NCBI GenBank assembly: GCA_027493955.1
Contig: JAOSJT010000001.1
Coordinates: 4,946,552 to 5,010,551, forward strand
DNA length: 64,000 bases
Direction of reading: 5' to 3'
Source: Bacteroidia bacterium
GTDB taxonomy: Bacteria > Bacteroidota > Ignavibacteria > SZUA-365
Of the stretch, positions 36,061 to 51,450 are shown piece by piece; position 1 is the first letter of the stretch; each line of letters starts with the position of its first letter. The notes beneath the pieces are model-generated. The model was not told where the DNA came from. It was given only the letters and a program-made list of their open reading frames with translations, and made no database searches. The position numbers and the translations under genes are program-made.

Positions 36061-36525
36061 CGAGAAGGGGATTGGACTTGCCGACGTGTCGTGAAATGCT
36101 CAACATCGCAACGCCGTTGAGGTCGATTTTGTGCCTGTGTAGCAGAACCTGGTATTGAGAAATTGGGGTGATCTCTCCCTTACATCGGGGAATTCTTTCT
36201 TGTTGCGATGAATCGCGGTTTGCGATGATGTTTGGAGTCTTTCACTACAGGCAGCGTTATCGCCTTTCCGGTGGTGCTCCGCAATGCATTATATAGTAAA
36301 GGGTTAGGGCTGTCCGACTGCGTATTCGCAAAGCGGCAGGATGTGCGTTCCCACACTCATGTCGGGGATGGAGGAGGAGTCGCCCTGTAGAAGCCCCCCA
36401 CTTACGTATGGGTCGGAGGCCGCAGGCCGGAGACTCGCCGCGGCGAGGTTTGAAGAAGTGTCGTCCTGCGGACTGAGGAGTTTGTGCGGGCGTGCGTGTC
36501 CCCACACTTACGTATGGGGATGGAG
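36061..36525. other. Non-coding stretch with repeat fragments before the tandem array
   Basis: No supportable gene. It contains the palindrome GACTCGCCGCGGCGAGGT at 36432-36449 and two diverged copies of a G-rich motif (TGCGTTCCCACACTCATGTC at 36340-36362 and a relative near 36499-36520) that resemble the array units that follow. Confidence 0.5.
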
Positions 36526-37250
36526 GAAGTGTCGCCCTTCGGGCTGGCGTCTCTCTGGCGAGCGCGTTCGACCTCTGGCTGAAGCCCGGGGATAGAGGAA
36601 GTGGCGCCCTTCGGGCTGGCGTCTCTCTGGCGAGCGCGTTCGACCTCTGGCTGAAGCCCGGGGATAGAGGAGGTGTCGCCCTTCGGGCTGGCGTCTCTCT
36701 GGCGAGCGCGTTCGACCCCGGGCTGAAGCCCGGGGATAGAGTAGGTGGCGCCCTGCGGGCTGGCGTCTCTCTGGCGAGCGCGTTCGACCTCTGGCTGAAG
36801 CCCGGGGATAGAGGAGGTGGCGCCCTTCGGGCTGGCGTCTCTCTGGCGAGCGCGTTCGACCTCTGGCTGAAGCCCGGGGATAGAGGAGGTGGCGCCCTTC
36901 GGGCTGGCGTCTCTCTGGCGAGCGCGTTCGGCCCCGGGCTGAAGCCCGGGGACAGAGGAGGTGTCGCCCTTCGGGCTGGCGTCTCTCTGGCGAGCGCGTT
37001 CGGCCCCGGGCTGAAGCCCGGGGATAGAGGAAGTGGCGCCCTTCGGGCTGGCGTCTCTCTGGCGAGCGCGTTCGGCCCCGGGCTGAAGCCCCGGGGATAG
37101 AGCAAGTGGCGCCCTTCGGGCTGGCGTCTCTCTGGCGAGCGCGTTCGACCCCGGGCTGAAGCCCGGGGATAGCGGAAGTGGCGCCCTTCGGGCTGGCGTC
37201 TCTCTGGCGAGCGCGTTCGGCCCCGGGCTGAAGCCCGGGGATAGAGGAGG
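36526..37250. repeat. 72-bp tandem repeat array, ten units
   Basis: The core CTGGCGTCTCTCTGGCGAGC starts at 36544, 36616, 36688, 36760, 36832, 36904, 36976, 37048, 37121 and 37193: a period of 72 nt, once 73. Each unit contains CCCGGGCTGAAGCCCGGGG, a hairpin (CTTCAGCCC-type arms), and some have CTCTGGCTGAAGCCC instead of CCCCGGGCTGAAGCCC. Because 72 is a multiple of three, long open frames appear on both strands; these are artefacts. One partial unit remains beyond the IS at 38708-38728. Confidence 0.9.
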
Positions 37251-37443
37251 TGGAGTGTACCGCAAAAAATGGACAGTGAGTTCCCCCCGGATTGAAATGA
37301 CAGTGTGCTTGTAGTGGTCGCGTTCGCAGTCGCGCAGAGGAACCGCGGGGTGGCGCCGGGGCGGCCCTGAGCTCTCTTGGGGGCTCCAGTCGCCCCGACT
37401 GCCAGCGCGGTTCGCTGCGCGCCTTGCTCTCGCTCATATCGTT

Positions 37444-38325
37444 TCATGCCGCCTGCTCCATGTCATTGCCGAGACGTTTCTTCGACCAATACAGATTCTC
37501 GTGTTCCTGCGGCGTATGATAGCCCAGCGTGCTGTGCAGACGCTGATTATTGTATTCAAGTTCAATGTACTCGAAGAGGTATCGCCGGGCATCCGTCACC
37601 GACGCGAAGAGAAGTCCTTCCGGCATTTCCTTCTTCAACGTGGCAAAAAATGACTCGGCGACGGCGTTATCCCAGCAATCACCCTTCCTGCTCATGCTCT
37701 GAATGCTGCCGTAAGGGCGCAGGGCACTGCGGAATCCCTCGCAGCAGTATTGCACACCGCGATCAGAATGCACGATAAGCCCCGCACGTATGCTTCGCGT
37801 CCAAGCCGCGCGTTTGAACGCGGTCACAACCATTGTATGGCGCAACGATGTGCTGACCTCCCAGCCGACGATCTTCCGGGAAAACAGGTCGATAAACACG
37901 CACAAGTACAACCATCCGGAGGTGCTGCGCAAATACGTGATATCACTCACCCACACCGTATCAGGTGCATCGACCGAAAACTGGCGTTCGAGCATATTTG
38001 GCGAGACAGTATACGAATGCTTCGAATCTGTCGTGGTAATGAAACGGCGACGATGCTTGACCTTCAATCCCTGCCGACGCATGCTGGCCGCCACGCGGCT
38101 CCGCCCGCACGCGAAACCGCGCTTGCGTAATGCTTTGACGAGACGACGTACGCCGTAGCTGGATTTCCTGCGCAGGAATTCCTCCCGGACCGCCATATCG
38201 AAGGCTGCGGTGCGCTCGGCGCGTGCATGCTCGCCACGACGACGCCATGCATAATAGCCTGAGCACGATACGTTGAGCACGCTGGCCATCCTTTCGATGC
38301 TAAACTCGTTCCGATATGCGTTCAT
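37444..38325 (-). CDS. IS3 transposase OrfB (DDE integrase catalytic part)
   Basis: A 293-residue frame from ATG 38325. It contains an HTH_21-like start (MASVLNVSCSGYYAWRRRGE) and the rve core with the DDE triad: Asp in VWVSDITYLRS, Asp in LIVHSDRGVQY and Glu in NAVAESFFATLKKE. The C-terminal LEYNNQRLHSTLGYHTPQEH is the standard IS3 ending. The frame reads upstream of the ATG to a TAA near 38369, so OrfB can be made by frameshifting or by its own start. Catalytic residues are intact. Confidence 0.93.
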   Translation of the reverse strand: MNAYRNEFSIERMASVLNVSCSGYYAWRRRGEHARAERTAAFDMAVREEFLRRKSSYGVRRLVKALRKRGFACGRSRVAASMRRQGLKVKHRRRFITTTDSKHSYTVSPNMLERQFSVDAPDTVWVSDITYLRSTSGWLYLCVFIDLFSRKIVGWEVSTSLRHTMVVTAFKRAAWTRSIRAGLIVHSDRGVQYCCEGFRSALRPYGSIQSMSRKGDCWDNAVAESFFATLKKEMPEGLLFASVTDARRYLFEYIELEYNNQRLHSTLGYHTPQEHENLYWSKKRLGNDMEQAA

Positions 38326-38744: not shown

Positions 38745-38868
38745 CAGGCCCGCCTTCGCCCTCATCCAACAATATCCGTGCTGCAGAGTTACAATGCTTC
38801 GGCGGGCAGGCCCGCCTTCGCCCTCATCCAACAATATCCGTGCTGCAGAGTTAGAATGCTTCGGCGGG
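38745..38868 (+). repeat. Two direct repeats of 62 bp
   Basis: Copies 38745-38806 and 38807-38868 start CAGGCCCGCCTTCGCCC and differ by one base (GAGTTACAATG against GAGTTAGAATG) by my reading. Each begins with GCCCGCC and ends with GGCGGGC, so each can fold as a long hairpin. A third start (CAGGC) follows at 38869. Located just after the barrel-protein stop on the minus strand. Confidence 0.85.
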
Positions 38869-38883
38869 CAGGCAACTCGTAAA

Positions 38884-41316: not shown

Positions 41317-41663
41317 GGAAACGAAGAAGCGTGAAACAAAAGGGACTATCAGGGAAACACGAATCGGGTCAGGGTGGTTTCATGCACCCGGTACTGTACT
41401 AATGTAACACATTTCGGGAAGATGCATGTTGAGATGCGGCATGTCGCGTCACCACAAGCATGCTGGGGCCAAATTCATAGAATTTCATCCGCGATCTTGG
41501 ATATTGTTGTCGTGCTGTGTAAATTGCATCTATGAAATAGGACTGAATGGTCTGTTAACACCGGATTCCCCCGGTTGTTGCCTTTTCCCGCTCCGGTGGG
41601 ATTCCCGGGCGGCAGACGAAGTCCGTGAACCTATTCCTTCGCCTGATCATCGAGGAGGATGAT

Positions 41664-44600
41664 ATGAAGGTCTTGTTCCTGCCGTTGCTTGTCGTGTTCT
41701 GTGCATTCACCGCCAATGGACAGACGCCTTCCCGGTCTGCATCAACCATATCCACCATTGATGTTCCACGCCTTTTCGTGATGAACGAAGGGCAGTGGGA
41801 TGAGCGTGTTCTGGCCTCCACAATGGGACCCGGCCCCACAGTTTCTTTCGGCAGCGATGGGTATAGCGTTGGCATAGAAACCGTCGGTCCCATGCGCGCG
41901 ACCGAAGGGGCTGTCCGCAACTGGCCGGGGATGCTGCTCGCGCATCCTTCGCCGGACTGTCGAGTGGAGCCCGCGCATGCCGATGGCAGCGAGGCGACGG
42001 TGTACGCGGCGGCCGACAGCGGCTTTCATCCGTACACGGTGCCGCAGTACAAGGCGATAGTGTATCGTCAGGCGTGGCCGGGAGTGGATATTACCGTGCG
42101 ACGTGTCGCAGCTGGGCTGGAACACGATATTGATGTGAAGGCCGGGGCGGATCTGTCGCGATTGCGTCTGCATTTCGGGAATATTGCCGCCGGACAGCTC
42201 GTCTTGCACGCTGCTGACGGACAAGACGCGGCGACACCTCGTCTGAGCGAAACAGCGCAGGGAACGGATTTCTCCGTCGGCGCTTCCCGGGCGCTGCGGG
42301 ATTTCCGCGTCACGTTGCGATACAACTTTTACTGGGGCGGCTCTCATCTGGAATGGGGCGCGACGTGCGCGGTGGACAGAAAGGGCGACGTAACGCTGCT
42401 CGGGCACTCCTTAAGCGGGGATTTCCCTATACACCCCGCCGGAAGTCCGGGAGGCGGGTCGGGTCCCTTTGCCATGTACCTTGTGAAAATCCCCGAATCG
42501 GGTATACCGGTCCGGTACAGCGTATCGTACAATGTCGGCCAATGGGCTTCTTACGGCATTCAGGCCGAAATCGGAAAGCACGACCGTCTTATCGTGACGT
42601 TTTATACCAGCACGCTGGATAAAATTGTCACACCGGACGCCGAGTTCCCGACCACCCGAACACAAGGGGAATGCCTCGCGGTGTTCGACAGCAGCGGCGG
42701 CATCGTGTATGCGACCGCGATACCGGACAGCGCCGGGGGCTTCACCACCTTCACGACCGACGCGGATGGGGTCATTTACCTGGCTACCCACACCAATGGT
42801 ACCCCGCGCTACATTACCCCTGACGCCTTCATGCCGGTGAATCAGGGAGGGTGGGACGGCGTCATCATGAAATTCCATCCCGATACATATAAACTGACGT
42901 ACGCGACCTGCATCGGTGGCAGCGCCGATGAATTTATAAGCGCGATTGCCGTGGACGGCTGCGGGTCCGTTGCCATTTCGGGATGGACCTGGAGCGCGGA
43001 CTACCCATTGCGGAACGCTGTGCAGAACAGTATGAACGGCAGGGCGGATTACGTGTTTACACGATTCACCGCCGATGGCAAAAGACTGGTCTTCTCCACA
43101 TATCTCGGCGGCAGTGCAGAGGAGGCGTGGACCTGGTCCGGAATGTACGGGAACCGCAGTTTACGCTACGCACCGAACAGCGATTTGTACTTCTATCTCG
43201 GAGCGTACGGGTCTGATTTTCCCCTCCGCAACCCGCTTCCTCTGCCACCGCAGACCCACGGGTATAATGCCGTGATAGGGAAATTTTCACCGATGGGCGA
43301 GTTGCGGTTTTCGTCCTGGATCTATGGCTGGCATGCGTATTGGCATGCATCCATCGATGTGGATTCTTGCGGCAACCTGATCGTTTCGGGGAGCAGTTTC
43401 CAGGACATTCCTCTTGTCAAGCCTGTATACACCATCGGGAACGCCTTTTGCGCCGTTGTTGATACACATATTCCCGAAATTCTGTTCTGTACGAAATTGG
43501 GTTGGAGTGTCGGTCATGGGAGTTCTGTCACCTGGTATTCTACCACCGGCGTGTTGAATGGTACATCCGTCTATCTCACGAAATCGGGTATCCATGACCC
43601 GGAGGTGCCCGCCACTCCCGGCTATCCTGCGGCCCATACGACGGATTCCACGGATATTCAGATCACACGGATAGATTTGCCCGATTTGTGCAGTCGTCCG
43701 GTGTTTCACGACAAGGCGACCGACAATGCGTACGTCTCGCTCGAGTTCTTCCACGATGACTCATTGCGGATTGACGAGCGCCGCGGGACTCATGCGCCGA
43801 CGACATTGCGGGTGCACGCCCGCCTGCGGAATAGCTCTTCCTGGTACAGTTCCGACTCTCTCGTGCTCTTGCTGCGTCTGCCCGGTCGTACGACGCTTGC
43901 ACCGGGCTCTCCGCCGCTGCGTCTGGTGTTGCCGCCGCTGTTGCCCGGGGACAGCACGGAGGTCACCTGGCTGCTGCTTCCGGAGGTGGACAGCATTCGC
44001 GCGTCCGTCACGCTGATGGGTGAGCTGCTGTATTCCTCCGGTGGCGAATGCCCCTCTCTCGATGCGCGCGAAATCCCTCTGCACGTCGAGTTTACCGAGT
44101 TGATAGAGGTTCCTGTTCGCTGTGCTGTATTCGTCCATCCACCCTTTGCGCTGAAACTCGACCGGACGCGTCTGACACAGGACACGGCGTACATACACGT
44201 ACGGATAGACAATCCGTCGAATATTCCGGCACAGCTCAGCCGCGTGCGGCTGGAGTTTCCCCCGGACGCGGGCGTCGTGTTGCTCGAGCCGGGCAGCCCC
44301 GAGGCGCAGCCGCCGGAGATACCGCCGAACAGCTCCATACAGCTGACCTGGAAGGTCCTCGTCCTGTCCTGGCCTTTCGCACGTCCGCTGCCGCTTCGGG
44401 CGGTGTTGTTCGACAGGTTCCAGCTGGAGGTGGCGTCATGCGAGGTACGGGAATCCATTCCGGGATCCGCCGGATCCAATTGCGGAATGTTGGCGAATGA
44501 TCCTGTCGTGGTAAATACCAACGACGCCAGCTATGAGCCGAAACCCATTCTTGCGGAACTCCGCATATACAACGAATCCGACACGAATCGCTATTATCAC

Positions 44601-46502
44601 GACCTCCACCTGGACCTTGGCGCCGCACCGTGGTTGAAAATCGAGGGGGATGAGCAGCTGCGCCGCCCGGATTTTATGATAGAGGAAGACTCCGTCGCAT
44701 ACTTCATGTGGCGGTTGCGACTCTGGCCGCTTCCGACGCAGGAAATGACGCAAACGGTGTTCGCCCGCTACCACGTGGAAGCGGACACGAGCGAGCGCGT
44801 GTGCAGTGTGCCGATTCGCATACGGGTTTCCGGTCCGCGTCCGAGCTGCGCGTTGCGGGGGCAGGATTCCCTGCATCTGCATCCATCAGGAGACCGCTTT
44901 GTAGAAGACAGCGTCGAGATCGTCGCGGAATTCCATAACAGCGGCACTCAGCAGCAGAAATTTTCATCCGCACGTCTCAGTTCAGGCGCGTGGCCGACGG
45001 AGATACGCAACGGAGAGGAGCAAGCGCTGAGCAATCTGGATGTGGGCGTGTCGTCCACGCTACGATGGAGCGTGCGCGTGCCGCGCTACACCTTCGATCG
45101 TACCATCACCTTGACAGTCACGGCCTATGATTCCGCCGGAAGGGCTGTCACGAATTGCAAGACGACCTTGTTTGTGCCGGCCATCAGATTGCAGTGCGGT
45201 ATCTCGACCGTGGATTCGGTGCACTACGATGTGTCACGAGACCGCTACACCCCGGAGCGCTTCGAGGTTTCGGCAACGTTTCACAACGCGTCCGACACTA
45301 CTCTTGCGAATCTTCGGGCAATTCTCGACAGCACGCAGCTTCGCCGCGTGCGTTTGACGGACGGTCAACACGCGGTGCAGAGCATCGCGGAACTTCTCCC
45401 CGGCGAAACCTGGACACCACGTTGGGAGCTCGAACCCGTGTGGGTTGATCGCGATGCGGTGCAGCTCTTCCGCGTCCGCTTCGAATACACACCGTCCAAC
45501 GCCTCCACCTTCTGTGAAGCAAGCAGCATCATCGGTGGTGCGCCGCGGGTCGCCGCCATGGCCTGCGCGACGGCGGGGCATGATACGGTGTGGACCGACA
45601 GCTTCTACGAATCGCTTATTCCCGATCCCGTGCAGGTACAGTACACGCTGCGCAACACGGGGAATATTCCGACACCGGCCTGCGAACTGGCGATACTGCC
45701 GCCGCCCGCGTTGCTGCTCGAAGCGGGGGAGGACAGCATCCGCAGCGTGCCGGTATTGCAGCCCGGCGACGCCTTTTCCGCGGAATGGCTGCTGCGCATC
45801 GCCATGGACAAGATCACCCCCGGTTCCTGGCCCATTCGCTGGGTAACGCGATGCGCGGATGGCGTACAGCCGCCGCAGTGCGAGCACAGTGTTTTCCTGC
45901 AGGAACGCGCACCCGAGGGCGTCGTGCTTACACCCTGGCTGCTGCGTTTCGAGGCCGAGCGGAATGGTCCGTTGCCTGCCTCACGGCAGGTACAGGTCTG
46001 GACGGGAGGTGGACTTGCTCCGTCGTGGAGCGTGACTTCGGTCCCCGCGTGGCTGGACGTATCGCCGCTGTTCGGCGCGGGTCACAGCGTTCTGACGGTG
46101 GGTCCCAACACCACGGCGTTGCCCCTTGGCGAGCACGCCGACCGCATCGTGCTGTCCGAAACACCGGTCAGTACCGGTGATGTGCAGGTGGTGTACAGCA
46201 TCCGCACGCCGCTAAGCGTCGACGAAACAGCGCGGCCGTTGTCTCTTCACATCGGATCAGTGTATCCGAATCCCGTGAGCTCCGGAGCGACGCTGGTCGT
46301 GGAGTACCGCAACGCAGCCCCCAGCGAAATCGCGTTGTCTCTCCATGACATGCTGGGCCGCGAGCGCCTCGCCGTCACGCAACGCGGTTTTGCGGACGGA
46401 CTCCTGAGTGTGCCGACGCAGGGATTGCCGGCCGGCGCGTATGTGTTGCGGCTGCGGGTGGGGGCGAAAGTTGCGGAGAAACTGGTGATGGTGCTGCCGT
46501 GA
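41664..46502 (+). CDS. Giant SBBP-repeat T9SS cargo protein, paralogue 1
   Basis: A 1612-residue protein; GAGGAGG (41652-41658) fixes ATG 41664. Signal peptide (MKVLFLPLLVVFCAFTANGQ). The N-terminal domain (FVMNEGQWDERVLASTMGPG, ... DFRVTLRYNFYWGGS) is followed by SBBP-like beta-propeller repeats with the pattern TYLGGS (STYLGGSAEEAW, YATCIGGSADEFISAIAVDG). Then many Ig-like/CARDB-like sandwiches, each with the LRNTGN/NNS-type pattern, and a T9SS sorting end (HIGSVYPNPVSSGATLVV ... LPAGAYVLRLRVG). Predicted large surface protein. Paralogue 2 follows 85 nt later. Confidence 0.87.
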   Translation: MKVLFLPLLVVFCAFTANGQTPSRSASTISTIDVPRLFVMNEGQWDERVLASTMGPGPTVSFGSDGYSVGIETVGPMRATEGAVRNWPGMLLAHPSPDCRVEPAHADGSEATVYAAADSGFHPYTVPQYKAIVYRQAWPGVDITVRRVAAGLEHDIDVKAGADLSRLRLHFGNIAAGQLVLHAADGQDAATPRLSETAQGTDFSVGASRALRDFRVTLRYNFYWGGSHLEWGATCAVDRKGDVTLLGHSLSGDFPIHPAGSPGGGSGPFAMYLVKIPESGIPVRYSVSYNVGQWASYGIQAEIGKHDRLIVTFYTSTLDKIVTPDAEFPTTRTQGECLAVFDSSGGIVYATAIPDSAGGFTTFTTDADGVIYLATHTNGTPRYITPDAFMPVNQGGWDGVIMKFHPDTYKLTYATCIGGSADEFISAIAVDGCGSVAISGWTWSADYPLRNAVQNSMNGRADYVFTRFTADGKRLVFSTYLGGSAEEAWTWSGMYGNRSLRYAPNSDLYFYLGAYGSDFPLRNPLPLPPQTHGYNAVIGKFSPMGELRFSSWIYGWHAYWHASIDVDSCGNLIVSGSSFQDIPLVKPVYTIGNAFCAVVDTHIPEILFCTKLGWSVGHGSSVTWYSTTGVLNGTSVYLTKSGIHDPEVPATPGYPAAHTTDSTDIQITRIDLPDLCSRPVFHDKATDNAYVSLEFFHDDSLRIDERRGTHAPTTLRVHARLRNSSSWYSSDSLVLLLRLPGRTTLAPGSPPLRLVLPPLLPGDSTEVTWLLLPEVDSIRASVTLMGELLYSSGGECPSLDAREIPLHVEFTELIEVPVRCAVFVHPPFALKLDRTRLTQDTAYIHVRIDNPSNIPAQLSRVRLEFPPDAGVVLLEPGSPEAQPPEIPPNSSIQLTWKVLVLSWPFARPLPLRAVLFDRFQLEVASCEVRESIPGSAGSNCGMLANDPVVVNTNDASYEPKPILAELRIYNESDTNRYYHDLHLDLGAAPWLKIEGDEQLRRPDFMIEEDSVAYFMWRLRLWPLPTQEMTQTVFARYHVEADTSERVCSVPIRIRVSGPRPSCALRGQDSLHLHPSGDRFVEDSVEIVAEFHNSGTQQQKFSSARLSSGAWPTEIRNGEEQALSNLDVGVSSTLRWSVRVPRYTFDRTITLTVTAYDSAGRAVTNCKTTLFVPAIRLQCGISTVDSVHYDVSRDRYTPERFEVSATFHNASDTTLANLRAILDSTQLRRVRLTDGQHAVQSIAELLPGETWTPRWELEPVWVDRDAVQLFRVRFEYTPSNASTFCEASSIIGGAPRVAAMACATAGHDTVWTDSFYESLIPDPVQVQYTLRNTGNIPTPACELAILPPPALLLEAGEDSIRSVPVLQPGDAFSAEWLLRIAMDKITPGSWPIRWVTRCADGVQPPQCEHSVFLQERAPEGVVLTPWLLRFEAERNGPLPASRQVQVWTGGGLAPSWSVTSVPAWLDVSPLFGAGHSVLTVGPNTTALPLGEHADRIVLSETPVSTGDVQVVYSIRTPLSVDETARPLSLHIGSVYPNPVSSGATLVVEYRNAAPSEIALSLHDMLGRERLAVTQRGFADGLLSVPTQGLPAGAYVLRLRVGAKVAEKLVMVLP
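45462..45880 (+). repeat. Near-identical tract shared with paralogue 2 (copy A)
   Basis: From CAGCTCTTCCGCGTCCGCTT onward, this stretch matches 50413-50831 at a constant offset of 4951 nt with three base differences by my reading. Immediately upstream (e.g. 45425-45461 against 50376-50412) the two genes differ at about half of all positions. Confidence 0.9.
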
Positions 46503-46587
46503 TACGGCGCGTTACGAATTGACGGCGAAAGCTTGCGCAATGCCGTGCGTAATGCGAGTGAATGAAGGTTGAAAAGGAGATCGGGTC

Positions 46588-49500
46588 ATGAAAGCTGTAA
46601 TCCTGTGCATGTGTCTCGCGCTGTATTTCAACGGCGCGGCGGGACAGACGCTTCCCGCCAGCACCGCGAAAATCTCCACCATCGACATACCGCGTCTGTT
46701 CGTGATGAACGAAGGGCAATGGGATGAACGCATCACCGCGTCAAGCATGGGGTTGGGACCGACGGTGTCGTTCGGGAGGGAAGGGTACAGCGTGGGAATC
46801 GAGCGGGGTGCTTCGCTGCACAGCGGCGACGTGGCTGCGTCCTCCTGGCCGGGAATGCGCTTGATCGCTCCTTCGCCGCGTTGCGCGGTTGTGCCAAAGG
46901 ACGAATCCGGGCCGAAAGCGAAATATCACAAGGAGGTTGAAGAGCGTTTCGTGCCATACGAACTGACGCAATACCGCAGCATCGCTTTCGAGCATGCGTG
47001 GTCCGGGATCGATGTGCATGTCAGCCGCGACGCGTCGGGCATGCGGCACGACTTCGACGTGAAGGCCGGCGCGGATTTGTCGGCTGTCCGTTTGCGCTTC
47101 GACAATGCCGAAGCGGCGCATTTGTCACTTTCCGGCGCTGACGGAGTTCTCGGTCTGAAGCCGAAGCTGGAAGAGGTGGATGATGGAGTGGAGGTAACGC
47201 TGGGTGATGTGAAGGTGCTCAGGGATTTCCGGGTGACGCTGGTGTATAATTATTATTGGGGGGGAAGCCATGAAGATTTACTCCACGATTATCTGGTTGA
47301 TCGTGCCGGGAATCTGATCGCGTATGGCAGCACGTACAGTTGGGATTTCCCCCTTCTCCCAAAACTGGATCCCAAGGAGCCGGTGAAATTGAGAAGTTTC
47401 CTTCAGAAATTCGATCCAACCGACGGATCGCTCATTTACTCACTGGTATACGACCAGTTGACGAATTCTTCCTCATGGTCTGACCTTGCAGTGATCGGGA
47501 AGAATGACAATCTCATACTCGGAATCAGTCGATCAACAATCAGTGCGTTCCTGACACCCGACGCGGAGTTTCAGCCAAGCGGGAGGCATACGCTCGTCAA
47601 CGGCACTCTGGTGTTCGACAGTTCCGGTGTGCTGCGGTATGGCACAGCGACACCGGACAGCGGACGAATATCTCTGATTGATATGACATGCGACGCCACG
47701 GGCACACTGTACGCACTGACTCATACGACACGGACGCCGGATTTCATTACCCCGGACGCGGTGATGCGAACACATCAAGGCGGGCTGGACGCTCTCATCA
47801 TGAAATTTGACGCTGATACGTACCATTTATCGTATGCCAGCTGCCTGGGCGGATCGAGCAATGACTGGATATCCGCTATCACCGTGGATGGCTGTGGCGC
47901 GGTGGCTGTGGCCGGCTACTCCTATTCGGATGATTATCCGGCTGTATCCGCAGTTCAGCCACAGAAGGTATGGGGTAGCGACCTGGTTTTTACCGTGATC
48001 TCGCCGGACGGAAGGACATTGATATACTCGACCTATCTCGGCGGTTCCGGTTACGATGGCTGGCTTTCATCTGTTGACGACGATGCGATATCTATCCGTT
48101 TCGATCCCGACGGGAATCTCTACTTTCAAGCAGCGACTACGTCCCCGGATTTCCCGCTCGTGAATGCGCTCATGAGTCGCGCATGGGTCAGTGCCATCGG
48201 GAAATTCAATCAAGCGGGACAGCTGGTATTCTCGTCGTATCTCTCGATATTCAACCATCATAACGGGGGGAATTTCTATGGATCGGATCGCGAGCTCGAA
48301 GTCGATGCCTGCGGTAATATGATACTGACAGGTATCGACAGCGTCGAACCGATTCCGCTGCTTCATCCCGTGCATGATAAAGGGCGGTCGACGCTTGTGG
48401 TGATTGATCCACAAATACCAGAAGTCCTGTTCTGTACAAAACTCGGTAATAGCGACTGGGGAGGGATTCACGGGGATGACGACGATCAACACGTACGTCT
48501 GCACGGGACGACGCTGTACTACGGTTCGTCGAGTGTTCTCACTGATGAATCTCTGCCGGCGACAGCGGGTTTCCCCGCCGGAGATGTGTCGCGTTGGTCG
48601 GAAATTCAATTCACAAAAATCGAATTGCCGGATCTCTGCAGCAGGCCGGTGTATTACGATCTGATCCCGCGGTATGGGAGTGTTACAGCAGAAATGTTCC
48701 CTCTCGATACCGTGCGTGTTGATCCGCGTCGTCGCATCTGTACGCCGGATTCCCTGATCGCGCGTTGCCGGATTAAGAATACCTCGAGTGTGTATCCAAC
48801 GGATTCCGTTGCTGTGGAGCTCCGGTTGCCGCCGGGTATGCGACTCTCCGCCTTTTCTCCACCGCTGCGACAGGTCCATGCGCCCTTGGCGCCGCTCGAC
48901 AGTATTGATATCCTGTGGTTCCTGTTGCCGCTTTCCGACACGCTTGTGAATCTCTCCTCTATCGAGGCCGTGCTGCACTATTCAAGCAATGGCGATTGCC
49001 CGGAACCTCGAAGCATGCAGTCCGTTGCGAACGTGCTCGTTCAGGATATAAGCGATGTAGAAGTCTCATGCGGAATTACGCTGAATCCCCGTCCAACGCT
49101 CACACCGGATCGTACACGTCTTCAGGATGACACACTCACGATCCGTGTCACGATCAGCAACAACTCTACGAAGCCACTCCAGTTGAAGAAGGTGGTACTG
49201 CATATCCCCTCTGACGCCGGCGTCAGTCTGCTCGAGCCGCACGACCCAGTCGCGTATCCACCGGTCATACCACCCGGAGCGTCCTTCGAACTCCAGTGGA
49301 AGATCTACGTGCAGTCCTGGCCGTTCTCGCGATCACTGCCGATACGTGCGGTATTATTCGATGTGTTCGACATTGTCGTGGCGCAGTGTGCCATAGGAGA
49401 AACCATTCCCGGCACTGCGGGTTCGATCTGCGGGATGTCCGCGACAGAACCAGTCTGGTACGACGCGAATGAAGCGACACATACTCCCAGCCCCATTCTG

Positions 49501-51450
49501 ATAGATCTGTCCATCCGCAACGTATCCGATTCATCACGCTGGTATCGCGATCTGCGTCTCGATCTGTCGCGGGCGCACTATCTCAAACCCGAGGTCGGTG
49601 AAACGCTCACGCGACCGGACTTCATTCTCGGACCGGATTCGATCGGGACCTTTCGCTGGAGATTGCTGGTGTCGCCTGCTCCCGTGCGCGATGAGATTCT
49701 GACGGTGCGTGCGTTGTACCGTGCGAATGGTGCGGAGCTTGAAACCGCATGTGAGGTGAAGGTGCGCATCTTTGTTGCACGTCCCGAGCTAGATTGCGTC
49801 CTCGCAATGCAGGATTCCCTGCATCTGAATCACTCCGGAGACGGCTTTGCCGAAGACAGTGTTGAGATTACGGCACTTTTCTCCAACACGGGCAGCTTGT
49901 CGCAACAGTTGGATCGCGCTCAGATCTTCATTGAGCCCGGCGGAGAGATCGAGTATCTCAACGGTGTCTCGCAACCGCTTGGCAATATCCCGGGCGGTGG
50001 ATCCGCAATAGTGCGCTGGTACATCCGAATCCCGGCACACCGTTTGAGCCGGAACTTTCGTTGTACAGCCGTTGCATACAACGCAGCGGGCACTCCGATC
50101 ACGGATTGTACGAGTCTTCTGTTCGCGCCTGCGCTGGAACTCCGGTGTAGTCTGTTGATCCCGGACAGTGTGCACTACGACGCTGAGAAGGATGTTTTCA
50201 CACCGGAACAGTTCAAACTTCAGGCGGTTTTCCATAATGCAACAGACACAACACTCACAAATCTGACTGCTGTACTCGACAGCACGCAACTGTACCGCGT
50301 GAGGTTGTCTGACCCGGCCTCCGCCATAAAGCATCTCCCATCGTTGTCGCCTGGATTTACCTGGCGGCCGGACTGGGAATTCGAAGCACTATGGGGACCA
50401 CGGGCCGAACGTCAGCTCTTCCGCGTCCGCTTCGAATACACACCGTCCAACGCCTCCACCTTCTGTGAAGCAAGCAGCATCATCGGTGGTGCGCCGCGGG
50501 TCGCCGCCATGGCCTGCGCGACGGCGGGGCATGATACGGTGTGGACCGACAGCTTCTACGAATCGCTTATTCCCGATCCCGTGCAGGTACAGTACACGCT
50601 GCGCAACACGGGGAATATTCCGACACCGGCCTGCGAACTGGCGATACTGCCGCCGCCCGCGTTGCTGCTCGAAGCGAGGGAGGACAGCATTCGCAGCGTG
50701 CCGGTATTGCAGCCCGGCGACGCCTTTTCCGCGGAATGGCTGCTGCGCATCGCCATGGACAAGATCACCCCCGGTTCCTGGCCCATTCGCTGGGTAACGC
50801 AATGCGCGGATGGCGTACAGCCGCCGCAGTGTGAGCACAGCGTATTCCTGCGGGAACGCGCACCCGAGGGCGTCGTACTCACGCCCTGGCTGCTGCGCTT
50901 TGAAGCCGAGCGGGACGGACCGCTGCCCGCTTTGCGTCACGTGCAGGTGTGGACGGGCGGTGGACTCACTCCGTCGTGGACCGCGACCTCCGTGCCGCTG
51001 TGGCTGGACGTATCGCCGCTGTTCGGCGCGGGTCATACCGTGATGACGGCGGTGCCCAACACCACGGCGCTGCCTCTCGGCGAGCACGCCGACCGCATCG
51101 TGCTGTCCGAGACCCCAATCAGCACCGGCGATGTGCAAGTGATCTACAGCATACGCACACCGCTGGGTGTCGATGCCGGAGCGCTCCCCACATCGCTTCT
51201 CATAGGAGCGGTGTATCCGAATCCCGCGACCGTCGGCGCGATGCTCGCAGTGGAGTACCGCAACACATCGGCCGTGGAGGTCACCTTGTCGCTGCACGAT
51301 CTTCTCGGCCGCGAGCGCTATGCGGCGAATCATCGCGCTACGGACGGCGGACTGCTGCATGTCTCCACGCGGGATCTCCCGCCGGGTGCGTATGTGCTGC
51401 GGGTGAGGAGTGGCTTCATGTCCGCTGAGAGGCTGGTGGTTGTGCGGTAG
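46588..51450 (+). CDS. Giant SBBP-repeat T9SS cargo protein, paralogue 2
   Basis: A 1620-residue protein; AAGGAG (46573-46578) precedes ATG 46588. Same architecture as the upstream gene: signal peptide (VILCMCLALYFNGAAGQ), SBBP-like propeller repeats (SYASCLGGSSNDWISAITVD, YSTYLGGSGYDGWLS), a long series of Ig-like modules, T9SS end (GAVYPNPATVGAMLAVEY ... LPPGAYVLRVRSG). The overall protein identity with paralogue 1 is moderate, apart from one almost identical tract (50413-50831). The two genes are tandem and probably co-expressed; both are predicted to be exported to the surface. Confidence 0.87.
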   Translation: MKAVILCMCLALYFNGAAGQTLPASTAKISTIDIPRLFVMNEGQWDERITASSMGLGPTVSFGREGYSVGIERGASLHSGDVAASSWPGMRLIAPSPRCAVVPKDESGPKAKYHKEVEERFVPYELTQYRSIAFEHAWSGIDVHVSRDASGMRHDFDVKAGADLSAVRLRFDNAEAAHLSLSGADGVLGLKPKLEEVDDGVEVTLGDVKVLRDFRVTLVYNYYWGGSHEDLLHDYLVDRAGNLIAYGSTYSWDFPLLPKLDPKEPVKLRSFLQKFDPTDGSLIYSLVYDQLTNSSSWSDLAVIGKNDNLILGISRSTISAFLTPDAEFQPSGRHTLVNGTLVFDSSGVLRYGTATPDSGRISLIDMTCDATGTLYALTHTTRTPDFITPDAVMRTHQGGLDALIMKFDADTYHLSYASCLGGSSNDWISAITVDGCGAVAVAGYSYSDDYPAVSAVQPQKVWGSDLVFTVISPDGRTLIYSTYLGGSGYDGWLSSVDDDAISIRFDPDGNLYFQAATTSPDFPLVNALMSRAWVSAIGKFNQAGQLVFSSYLSIFNHHNGGNFYGSDRELEVDACGNMILTGIDSVEPIPLLHPVHDKGRSTLVVIDPQIPEVLFCTKLGNSDWGGIHGDDDDQHVRLHGTTLYYGSSSVLTDESLPATAGFPAGDVSRWSEIQFTKIELPDLCSRPVYYDLIPRYGSVTAEMFPLDTVRVDPRRRICTPDSLIARCRIKNTSSVYPTDSVAVELRLPPGMRLSAFSPPLRQVHAPLAPLDSIDILWFLLPLSDTLVNLSSIEAVLHYSSNGDCPEPRSMQSVANVLVQDISDVEVSCGITLNPRPTLTPDRTRLQDDTLTIRVTISNNSTKPLQLKKVVLHIPSDAGVSLLEPHDPVAYPPVIPPGASFELQWKIYVQSWPFSRSLPIRAVLFDVFDIVVAQCAIGETIPGTAGSICGMSATEPVWYDANEATHTPSPILIDLSIRNVSDSSRWYRDLRLDLSRAHYLKPEVGETLTRPDFILGPDSIGTFRWRLLVSPAPVRDEILTVRALYRANGAELETACEVKVRIFVARPELDCVLAMQDSLHLNHSGDGFAEDSVEITALFSNTGSLSQQLDRAQIFIEPGGEIEYLNGVSQPLGNIPGGGSAIVRWYIRIPAHRLSRNFRCTAVAYNAAGTPITDCTSLLFAPALELRCSLLIPDSVHYDAEKDVFTPEQFKLQAVFHNATDTTLTNLTAVLDSTQLYRVRLSDPASAIKHLPSLSPGFTWRPDWEFEALWGPRAERQLFRVRFEYTPSNASTFCEASSIIGGAPRVAAMACATAGHDTVWTDSFYESLIPDPVQVQYTLRNTGNIPTPACELAILPPPALLLEAREDSIRSVPVLQPGDAFSAEWLLRIAMDKITPGSWPIRWVTQCADGVQPPQCEHSVFLRERAPEGVVLTPWLLRFEAERDGPLPALRHVQVWTGGGLTPSWTATSVPLWLDVSPLFGAGHTVMTAVPNTTALPLGEHADRIVLSETPISTGDVQVIYSIRTPLGVDAGALPTSLLIGAVYPNPATVGAMLAVEYRNTSAVEVTLSLHDLLGRERYAANHRATDGGLLHVSTRDLPPGAYVLRVRSGFMSAERLVVVR
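50413..50831 (+). repeat. Near-identical tract shared with paralogue 1 (copy B)
   Basis: Partner of 45462-45880. The three differences (GCGGGGG/GCGAGGG, ATCCGC/ATTCGC, ACGCGA/ACGCAA) change Gly to Arg and Arg to Gln and leave one silent. Downstream, similarity falls gradually; upstream, abruptly. Confidence 0.9.

Follow-up and report, generated by a model that had tools for sequence, protein, structure and literature searches.

In Helicobacter pylori, the 5′ segment of homA and homB groups by orthologue and the 3′ segment (segment 3) groups by strain, a pattern that the available part of PMC2795765 ascribes to concerted evolution via gene conversion. Segment 3 of babA and babB in the same species is also described there as evolving in concert by intragenomic recombination (Pride and Blaser 2002, cited in PMC2795765). 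In Mycobacterium tuberculosis, PE_PGRS17 and PE_PGRS18 are tandem duplicates between which a conversion tract has moved, according to the accessible part of PMC1762029. A different outcome of exchange is given for hagA-kgp of Porphyromonas gingivalis in the portion of PMC9328147 that was available, namely the in-frame loss of DNA between neighbours, probably by homologous recombination.

The window considered here (the whole stretch of DNA that was analysed, 64,000 nucleotides) contains two giant tandem genes, A and B, that share features with these systems. Like PE_PGRS17 and PE_PGRS18, they are tandem copies with a conversion tract, and like homA and homB, as the latter appear in the available part of PMC2795765, they belong to a family of paralogous surface-protein genes whose heads and tails group in conflict with each other.

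Results

The features of the two genes on which the analysis turns are the following.

41664..46502, plus strand: gene A, 1612 aa, with a hydrophobic, signal-peptide-like N-terminus; likely start Met at 41664
46588..51450, plus strand: gene B, 1620 aa, in tandem with its paralogue A (overall identity 54%; from the ORF and protein comparison)
41775..42188, plus strand: DUF7948 (PF25778) in A, E 8.8e-12
46699..47127, plus strand: DUF7948 (PF25778) in B, E 5.3e-12
45462..45880, plus strand: recent conversion tract, copy in A (identity at a constant offset, four-fold sites)
50413..50831, plus strand: recent conversion tract, copy in B (identity at a constant offset, four-fold sites)
45881..46502, plus strand: older homogenised block of A, the remainder of the C-terminal module as far as the stop (four-fold sites alike 65/103 versus 99/298 upstream)
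50832..51450, plus strand: older homogenised block of B (four-fold sites)
46260..46487, plus strand: putative sorting domain of A, Por_Secre_tail PF18962, E 7.3e-5, 23.4 bits, below the gathering score of 27
51211..51417, plus strand: putative sorting domain of B, Por_Secre_tail, E 0.002, 18.8 bits, below the gathering score; E 3e-4 in the module-row search

The mechanical ORF of gene A opens at a GTG at 41625, and the sequence points to the Met at 41664 as the start; the signal peptides of A and B were judged by eye. Hints of beta-propeller repeats in B were sub-threshold only. Both proteins end in a C-terminal module of ∼345–350 residues, composed of Ig-like, BACON-like, and sorting domains, that could be aligned in 24 family members, and the Ig-like domain that opens the module has several further copies upstream in relatives. 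Por_Secre_tail was detected at E <= 1 in 17 of the 24 module rows and BACON_2 (BACON PF19190/PF13004) at the same threshold in 13 of the 24 (best E 1.9e-4), module B being without the latter. A structural reading of the module was set aside because the AlphaFold model of module B (12 rows) had a mean pLDDT of 58, being good only at about residues 55–140 and 260–345 and of low confidence in the BACON-like part, and because the 50 matches listed by Foldseek against the PDB were generic beta-sandwich proteins (query-normalised TM <= 0.32). The window's genome encodes type IX machinery, with a PorU-type sortase (994 bits) and SprA_N (188 bits) each scoring above its cut-off, and the combination of a sorting domain, a signal-like start, and this machinery predicts that A and B are giant cargo of the type IX secretion system.

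Before the pair, positions 36516–37253 are taken up by about ten tandem copies of a G+C-rich, 72-base unit (95% alike, open in several frames) that has 67 matches in the genome; because many of these form arrays elsewhere, the unit is probably a dispersed non-coding repeat and not a gene. A transposase with HTH_21 and rve domains, which we take to be IS3-like, adjoins this array at 37444–38325, ∼3.3 kb before gene A. Just downstream of a minus-strand TonB-dependent receptor-like gene, a 62-base unit occurs twice, 98% alike, at 38745–38873.

A first-pass annotation of this DNA had reported 419 bp with three differences at a constant offset of 4951 nt, and the comparison of 45462–45880 with 50413–50831 reproduced exactly these coordinates and differences (45726 G/A, 45740 C/T, and 45850 G/A, A before B). 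The change at 45740 is synonymous and those at 45726 and 45850 are nonsynonymous; since the column of 45726 has Gly in gene A and in the nearest relatives of A, gene B is probably the copy that changed there. The two longest exact-match runs are 264 and 109 nt. Directly 5′ of the tract, identity is only ∼55%, which confirms the abrupt upstream edge noted earlier, and on the 3′ side there is no sharp loss, identity running at 81–85% over ∼300 nt and then at ∼70% towards the stop; similarity between A and B 3′ of their stop codons was not detectable. The best fragment score in the whole gene pair was 401, as compared to at most 30 when sites were shuffled 2000 times, and as compared to 137 in 5000 codon shuffles when restricted to the last 1035 nt. 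Exactly two copies of the tract are present in the genome (a single closed contig of 5,237,942 bases), both in intact genes. G+C content is 0.65 and 0.64 in the tract copies of A and B versus 0.60 and 0.58 in the respective genes, and third-position GC gives a weak contrast as to the donor, the tract (0.79 and 0.78) being closer to the head of A (0.69) than to that of B (0.62). The tract had been called an Ig-like segment, which is correct insofar as it contains the whole of the last Ig-like repeat, but it also contains the last strands of the preceding repeat and the start of the BACON-like domain (borders by eye).

Four-fold degenerate sites, counted on the codon alignment of A and B, were alike at 99 of 298 positions upstream of the tract, 78 of 78 inside it, and 65 of 103 from the tract end to the stop. 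The upstream value is near the chance level of 0.30 expected from base composition. The stretch after the tract differs both from the upstream part (Fisher p 2.2e-7) and from the tract itself (1e-11). Because the silent sites agree throughout the tract and only near chance upstream of it, we conclude that DNA was copied between A and B; a delimited segment whose silent sites are nearly all the same, within paralogues that have otherwise diverged, is the mark of ectopic gene conversion. The recent conversion suggested by the first-pass annotation is thus sustained by these counts and by the fragment score, whereas its alternative, selection that keeps the segment uniform, is contradicted: selection at the protein level alone fails to account for the tract. 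What that annotation overlooked is that the tract is a young conversion layer, the youngest, over an older homogenised block that continues to the stop. Most simply, there were at least two transfers, the older extending in the direction of the stop and the younger covering the 5′ end of the block, and the sharp 5′ edge would then correspond to the start of the older block and hence of usable homology. By arithmetic only, the predicted 4951-nt deletion between A and B would be in frame and would give a fused product of 1611 residues.

Elsewhere in the same genome, the module profile matched at E <= 1e-6 in at least 142 places (150 of 394 candidates scored), mostly through the sorting domain alone. 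Among the 150 scored candidates, four had a full module, each in a long open gene: A, B, one gene at 1.95 Mb, and one at 4.25 Mb. We then compared, all against all, the 3′ ends of 140 genes with a sorting domain (136 pieces, L095–L230, plus the four full-module genes); the other two of the 142 matches were excluded, as the sorting domain was not reached, and weak patches of 66–117 nt at 75–81% were left out of the counts. Apart from the two full-module pairs, similarity limited to the 3′ end was seen at two loci. A tandem pair at 4.045 Mb has last 105 residues that are 93% and 80% identical, with 50 of 58 four-fold sites alike versus 69 of 177 before them, and a tandem group at 1.71 Mb is 83% alike over 284 nt at the 3′ end, the jump being clear in one pair and weak in the others. 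At 3.00–3.02 Mb (L231), two long blocks of genes Y1 and Y2 agree at 97% on either side of a middle that differs between the copies, and the last 50 residues of Y1 and its downstream DNA resemble those of its neighbour, gene X (94% of residues and 26 of 28 four-fold sites alike). The locus is a 4.4 kb tandem duplication of a cargo gene of 1414 residues, and the junction falls inside a sorting domain. Judged by its sequence, such a junction would be the footprint expected of unequal crossing-over in sorting-domain DNA that duplicates a 4.4 kb unit; an event of this type is the reciprocal counterpart of the A/B deletion predicted in the first-pass annotation.

One candidate, the pair L122/L127 (L234/L235, at 0.98 and 3.48 Mb), was rejected as a sorting-domain copy (90% over 196 nt) because 2.2 kb more are alike at 95%; we class it as an ordinary dispersed duplicate of a cargo gene and did not count it. 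There is nothing alike in the middle of its two copies, and the second is split into two ORFs. At 4.352–4.369 Mb (L238), a 2.8 kb stretch that includes the ends of two cargo genes is repeated 9.5 kb away with 99.8% identity.

A check of relatives, also proposed in the first-pass annotation, showed that tail homogenisation recurs in dispersed paralogues and in other genomes. A scan of the named genomes with gene B alone as query found no relative, and the module alignment, used as query instead, picked up 10 loci in draft genomes. Our sample consisted of all 55 within-genome pairs of members with at least 500 residues before the module, from seven genomes; the window's genome (G000) is closed, and the others are draft assemblies, from outside its genus, in which several modules end at contig ends. 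A strong jump from head to tail was seen in 14 of the 55 pairs, in four of the seven genomes (G000, G002, G005, and G006). In these pairs the heads are 26–45% identical (four-fold identity 0.26–0.44) and the modules 69–98% identical (four-fold identity 0.54–0.97), the weakest being the G005C126 pair (69%, four-fold 0.54). There were no jump pairs among the near-full-length members of G001, G009, and G010. The break lies 323–385 residues from the C-terminus in 12 of the 14 pairs and 458 residues from it in the pair at 1.95 and 4.25 Mb; in the G002 pair, which is truncated at contig ends, it lies ∼85 residues before the module start. Forty of the 55 pairs lack a strong jump, which counts against recurrent conversion of the tails: ten of these, between C16-type and C17-type genes of G006, are intermediate (module 0.57–0.66, silent sites 0.35–0.48), and the remaining thirty show a mild rise at most. 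In one pair of the 55, G006C3/C16_3, similarity is high over almost the whole length.

Homology extends into non-coding DNA past the stop in four pairs (C17_1/C17_2, +247; C16_2/C1, +135/+121; C16_1/C1, +168/+205; and the 1.95/4.25 Mb pair, +71/+69), and the remaining pairs lose it close to the stop codon or ahead of it, except for a shifted 59-nt patch in C16_1/C16_2. G006C16_3 is a chimaera with C17-type sequence in its last ∼50 residues, and in G010 four tail modules cluster with one G009 module nested inside. When ten cross-genome head neighbours were chosen, head and module identity were about equal in six; identity went from 0.49 in the head to 0.58 in the module in G006C16_1/G009C314 and from 0.44 to 0.69 in G006C17_2/G008C285, where only a fragment of the module was compared. 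Against G005C95, A and B each have 36% head identity and 50% module identity (module four-fold identity 0.52 and 0.46), and this rise indicates that the module is inherently better conserved, so that part of the contrast between heads and tails is baseline.

Several other features were seen at these loci. L061 and L063 (G006 contigs 16 and 3) are alike over 509 nt close to the 5′ end (98.4%) and over 2971 nt at the 3′ end (90.7%), with a diverged middle; the identity at the 5′ end indicates that homogenisation in close pairs is not confined to tails. Short tandem repeats directly follow both stop codons at L052 and L053, with a step of ∼14 bases after the 1.95 Mb gene. In G003, for which the family search listed no full copy, L092 and L093 (contigs 11 and 9) are lone C-terminal module fragments within long contigs and look like relics; the match of one is interrupted by a stop.

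The module tree (34 rows) and the head tree (28 rows) have unequal row sets because fragments have no head. The module tree groups by genome, with 16 label changes versus 23.2 in shuffles (0 of 200 as low), and the head tree hardly does, with 16 versus 18.1 (18 of 200 as low). Five G006 genes (C16_1, C16_2, C16_3, C1, and C3) form a single clade by module (100/100); by head, G006C1 joins G005C126p, G006C3 and C16_3 join G009C178, and C16_1 joins G009C314, with 99–100% support. Similarly, the 1.95 and 4.25 Mb genes pair as sisters in the module tree and are separated in the head tree, and G005C41 pairs with G005C95 in the head tree but falls in a different half of the module tree. G005C181 has a long branch in both trees. 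AU tests on groups chosen after inspection of the trees gave nine rejections out of nine, the tail data rejecting all five head groupings (p 0.003 to 1.4e-6) and the head data all four tail groupings (p 4.3e-4 to 2e-60). Across the family, therefore, one segment groups by genome and the other by orthologue, as in homA/homB. A and B themselves are sisters by head and by module, so the evidence for this pair comes from branch lengths and silent sites and not from topology: they are 1.30 changes per site apart by head and 0.21 by module, and their distances to G005C95 are 1.90 and 2.06 by head and 1.39 and 1.43 by module.

Discussion

Relatives and other loci show that, within genomes, the heads of this family are old paralogues and the tail modules coalesce recently. 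Both the A/B pair and the family are very probably explained by repeated ectopic gene conversion, together with unequal crossing-over, for which the conserved 3′ module acts as the seed. A and B would be old tandem paralogues whose last ∼345 codons form a conserved module, presumably the sole long part with enough DNA similarity left for homologous recombination. RecA-dependent ectopic gene conversion, in which a break in one copy is repaired from the other, would begin in this module and stop where homology ends, producing the sharp 5′ edge, and occasional unequal crossing-over in the module would produce tandem copies or deletions. The heads would be free to diversify, and the export and anchoring tail is likely kept matched to one secretion machinery.

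The same conflict between head and tail trees would be expected if young whole-gene duplicates had acquired old heads from elsewhere, and the young duplicate at 3.00 Mb does carry the tail of another gene. However, the heads are old, full-length, alignable lineages common to several genera, and the gene upstream of G006C1 finds its best match, among the flanks compared, in the neighbour of G005C126p (48.5%, 715 aa), which suggests, modestly since related cargo genes adjoin other copies too, that the gene stayed in place. Head replacement is thus unlikely. We consider it far less likely still that an assembler placed one repeat twice: although several modules of the draft relatives do lie at contig ends, the window's genome is a single closed contig, the tract has three differences and is followed by an older diverged block, and in G005 and G006 the pattern is found at 69–93% identity, unlike a collapsed repeat.

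Purifying selection that acts on the protein, or on a signal overlapping it, with no transfer of DNA, would be consistent with a module that is best conserved between genomes too (0.36 to 0.50 for A or B with G005C95), but the uniform silent sites of the tract as compared to those upstream, the near-chance silent sites in modules of cross-genome orthologues (e.g., 32/87 for G006C1/G005C126p), and the homology of four other pairs into non-coding DNA make it extremely improbable as the explanation. Hardly any weight can be given, either, to a dedicated variation system with silent cassettes, a site-specific recombinase, or a diversity-generating retroelement. Large surface proteins do combine variable and constant parts, but a genome-wide match search for silent donor cassettes of the A/B tract found none, the tract occurring twice only and in intact genes and the four full modules all in long open genes; moreover, the edges vary among pairs from 323 to 458 residues from the C-terminus, and the rve/HTH_21 transposase is the sole recombination-type gene in the ten ORFs around A and B.

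Conversion and crossing-over seeded by the module give a testable account of how giant secreted families keep a common export tail as their heads drift beyond recognition. A tree built from whole proteins of this sort combines two separate histories, and the tails are places where a draft assembly can break. We also raise, tentatively and with more doubt than confidence, the idea that sorting-tail DNA is a genome-wide recombination hub for conversion, tail swaps, and tandem duplication, in which tails would belong to the genome and heads would diverge; if so, the sorting tail would be both an export signal and a birthplace of new cargo genes.

The process is segmental concerted evolution, which is of a known kind, and as far as we have searched its setting is new, i.e., tails of type IX cargo at dispersed loci in several genera; a full-text search of the open-licence literature found no report of segmental concerted evolution of type IX cargo tails. 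In the available part of PMC2795765, homA and homB occupy two loci among strains and are ∼90% alike overall, whereas the family of A and B consists of many dispersed paralogues, with heads 26–45% identical, a distribution across genera, and a type IX tail. The outer-membrane proteins babA and babB belong to an unrelated family, and the accessible portion of PMC3444412 links their recombination to antigenic variation. PE_PGRS17 and PE_PGRS18, as far as the accessible part of PMC1762029 describes them, differ from A and B in that the copies are far more alike overall and conversion has been repeated among strains of one species. The hagA-kgp and gingipain genes resemble A and B in being type IX cargo genes with common modules, but in the portions of PMC9328147 and PMC5266723 that were available the common parts are adhesin repeats, and those portions contain no silent-site or tree test of tail homogenisation. 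The in-frame loss between hagA and kgp (PMC9328147, same portion) is nevertheless the kind of event that the first-pass annotation predicts for A and B.
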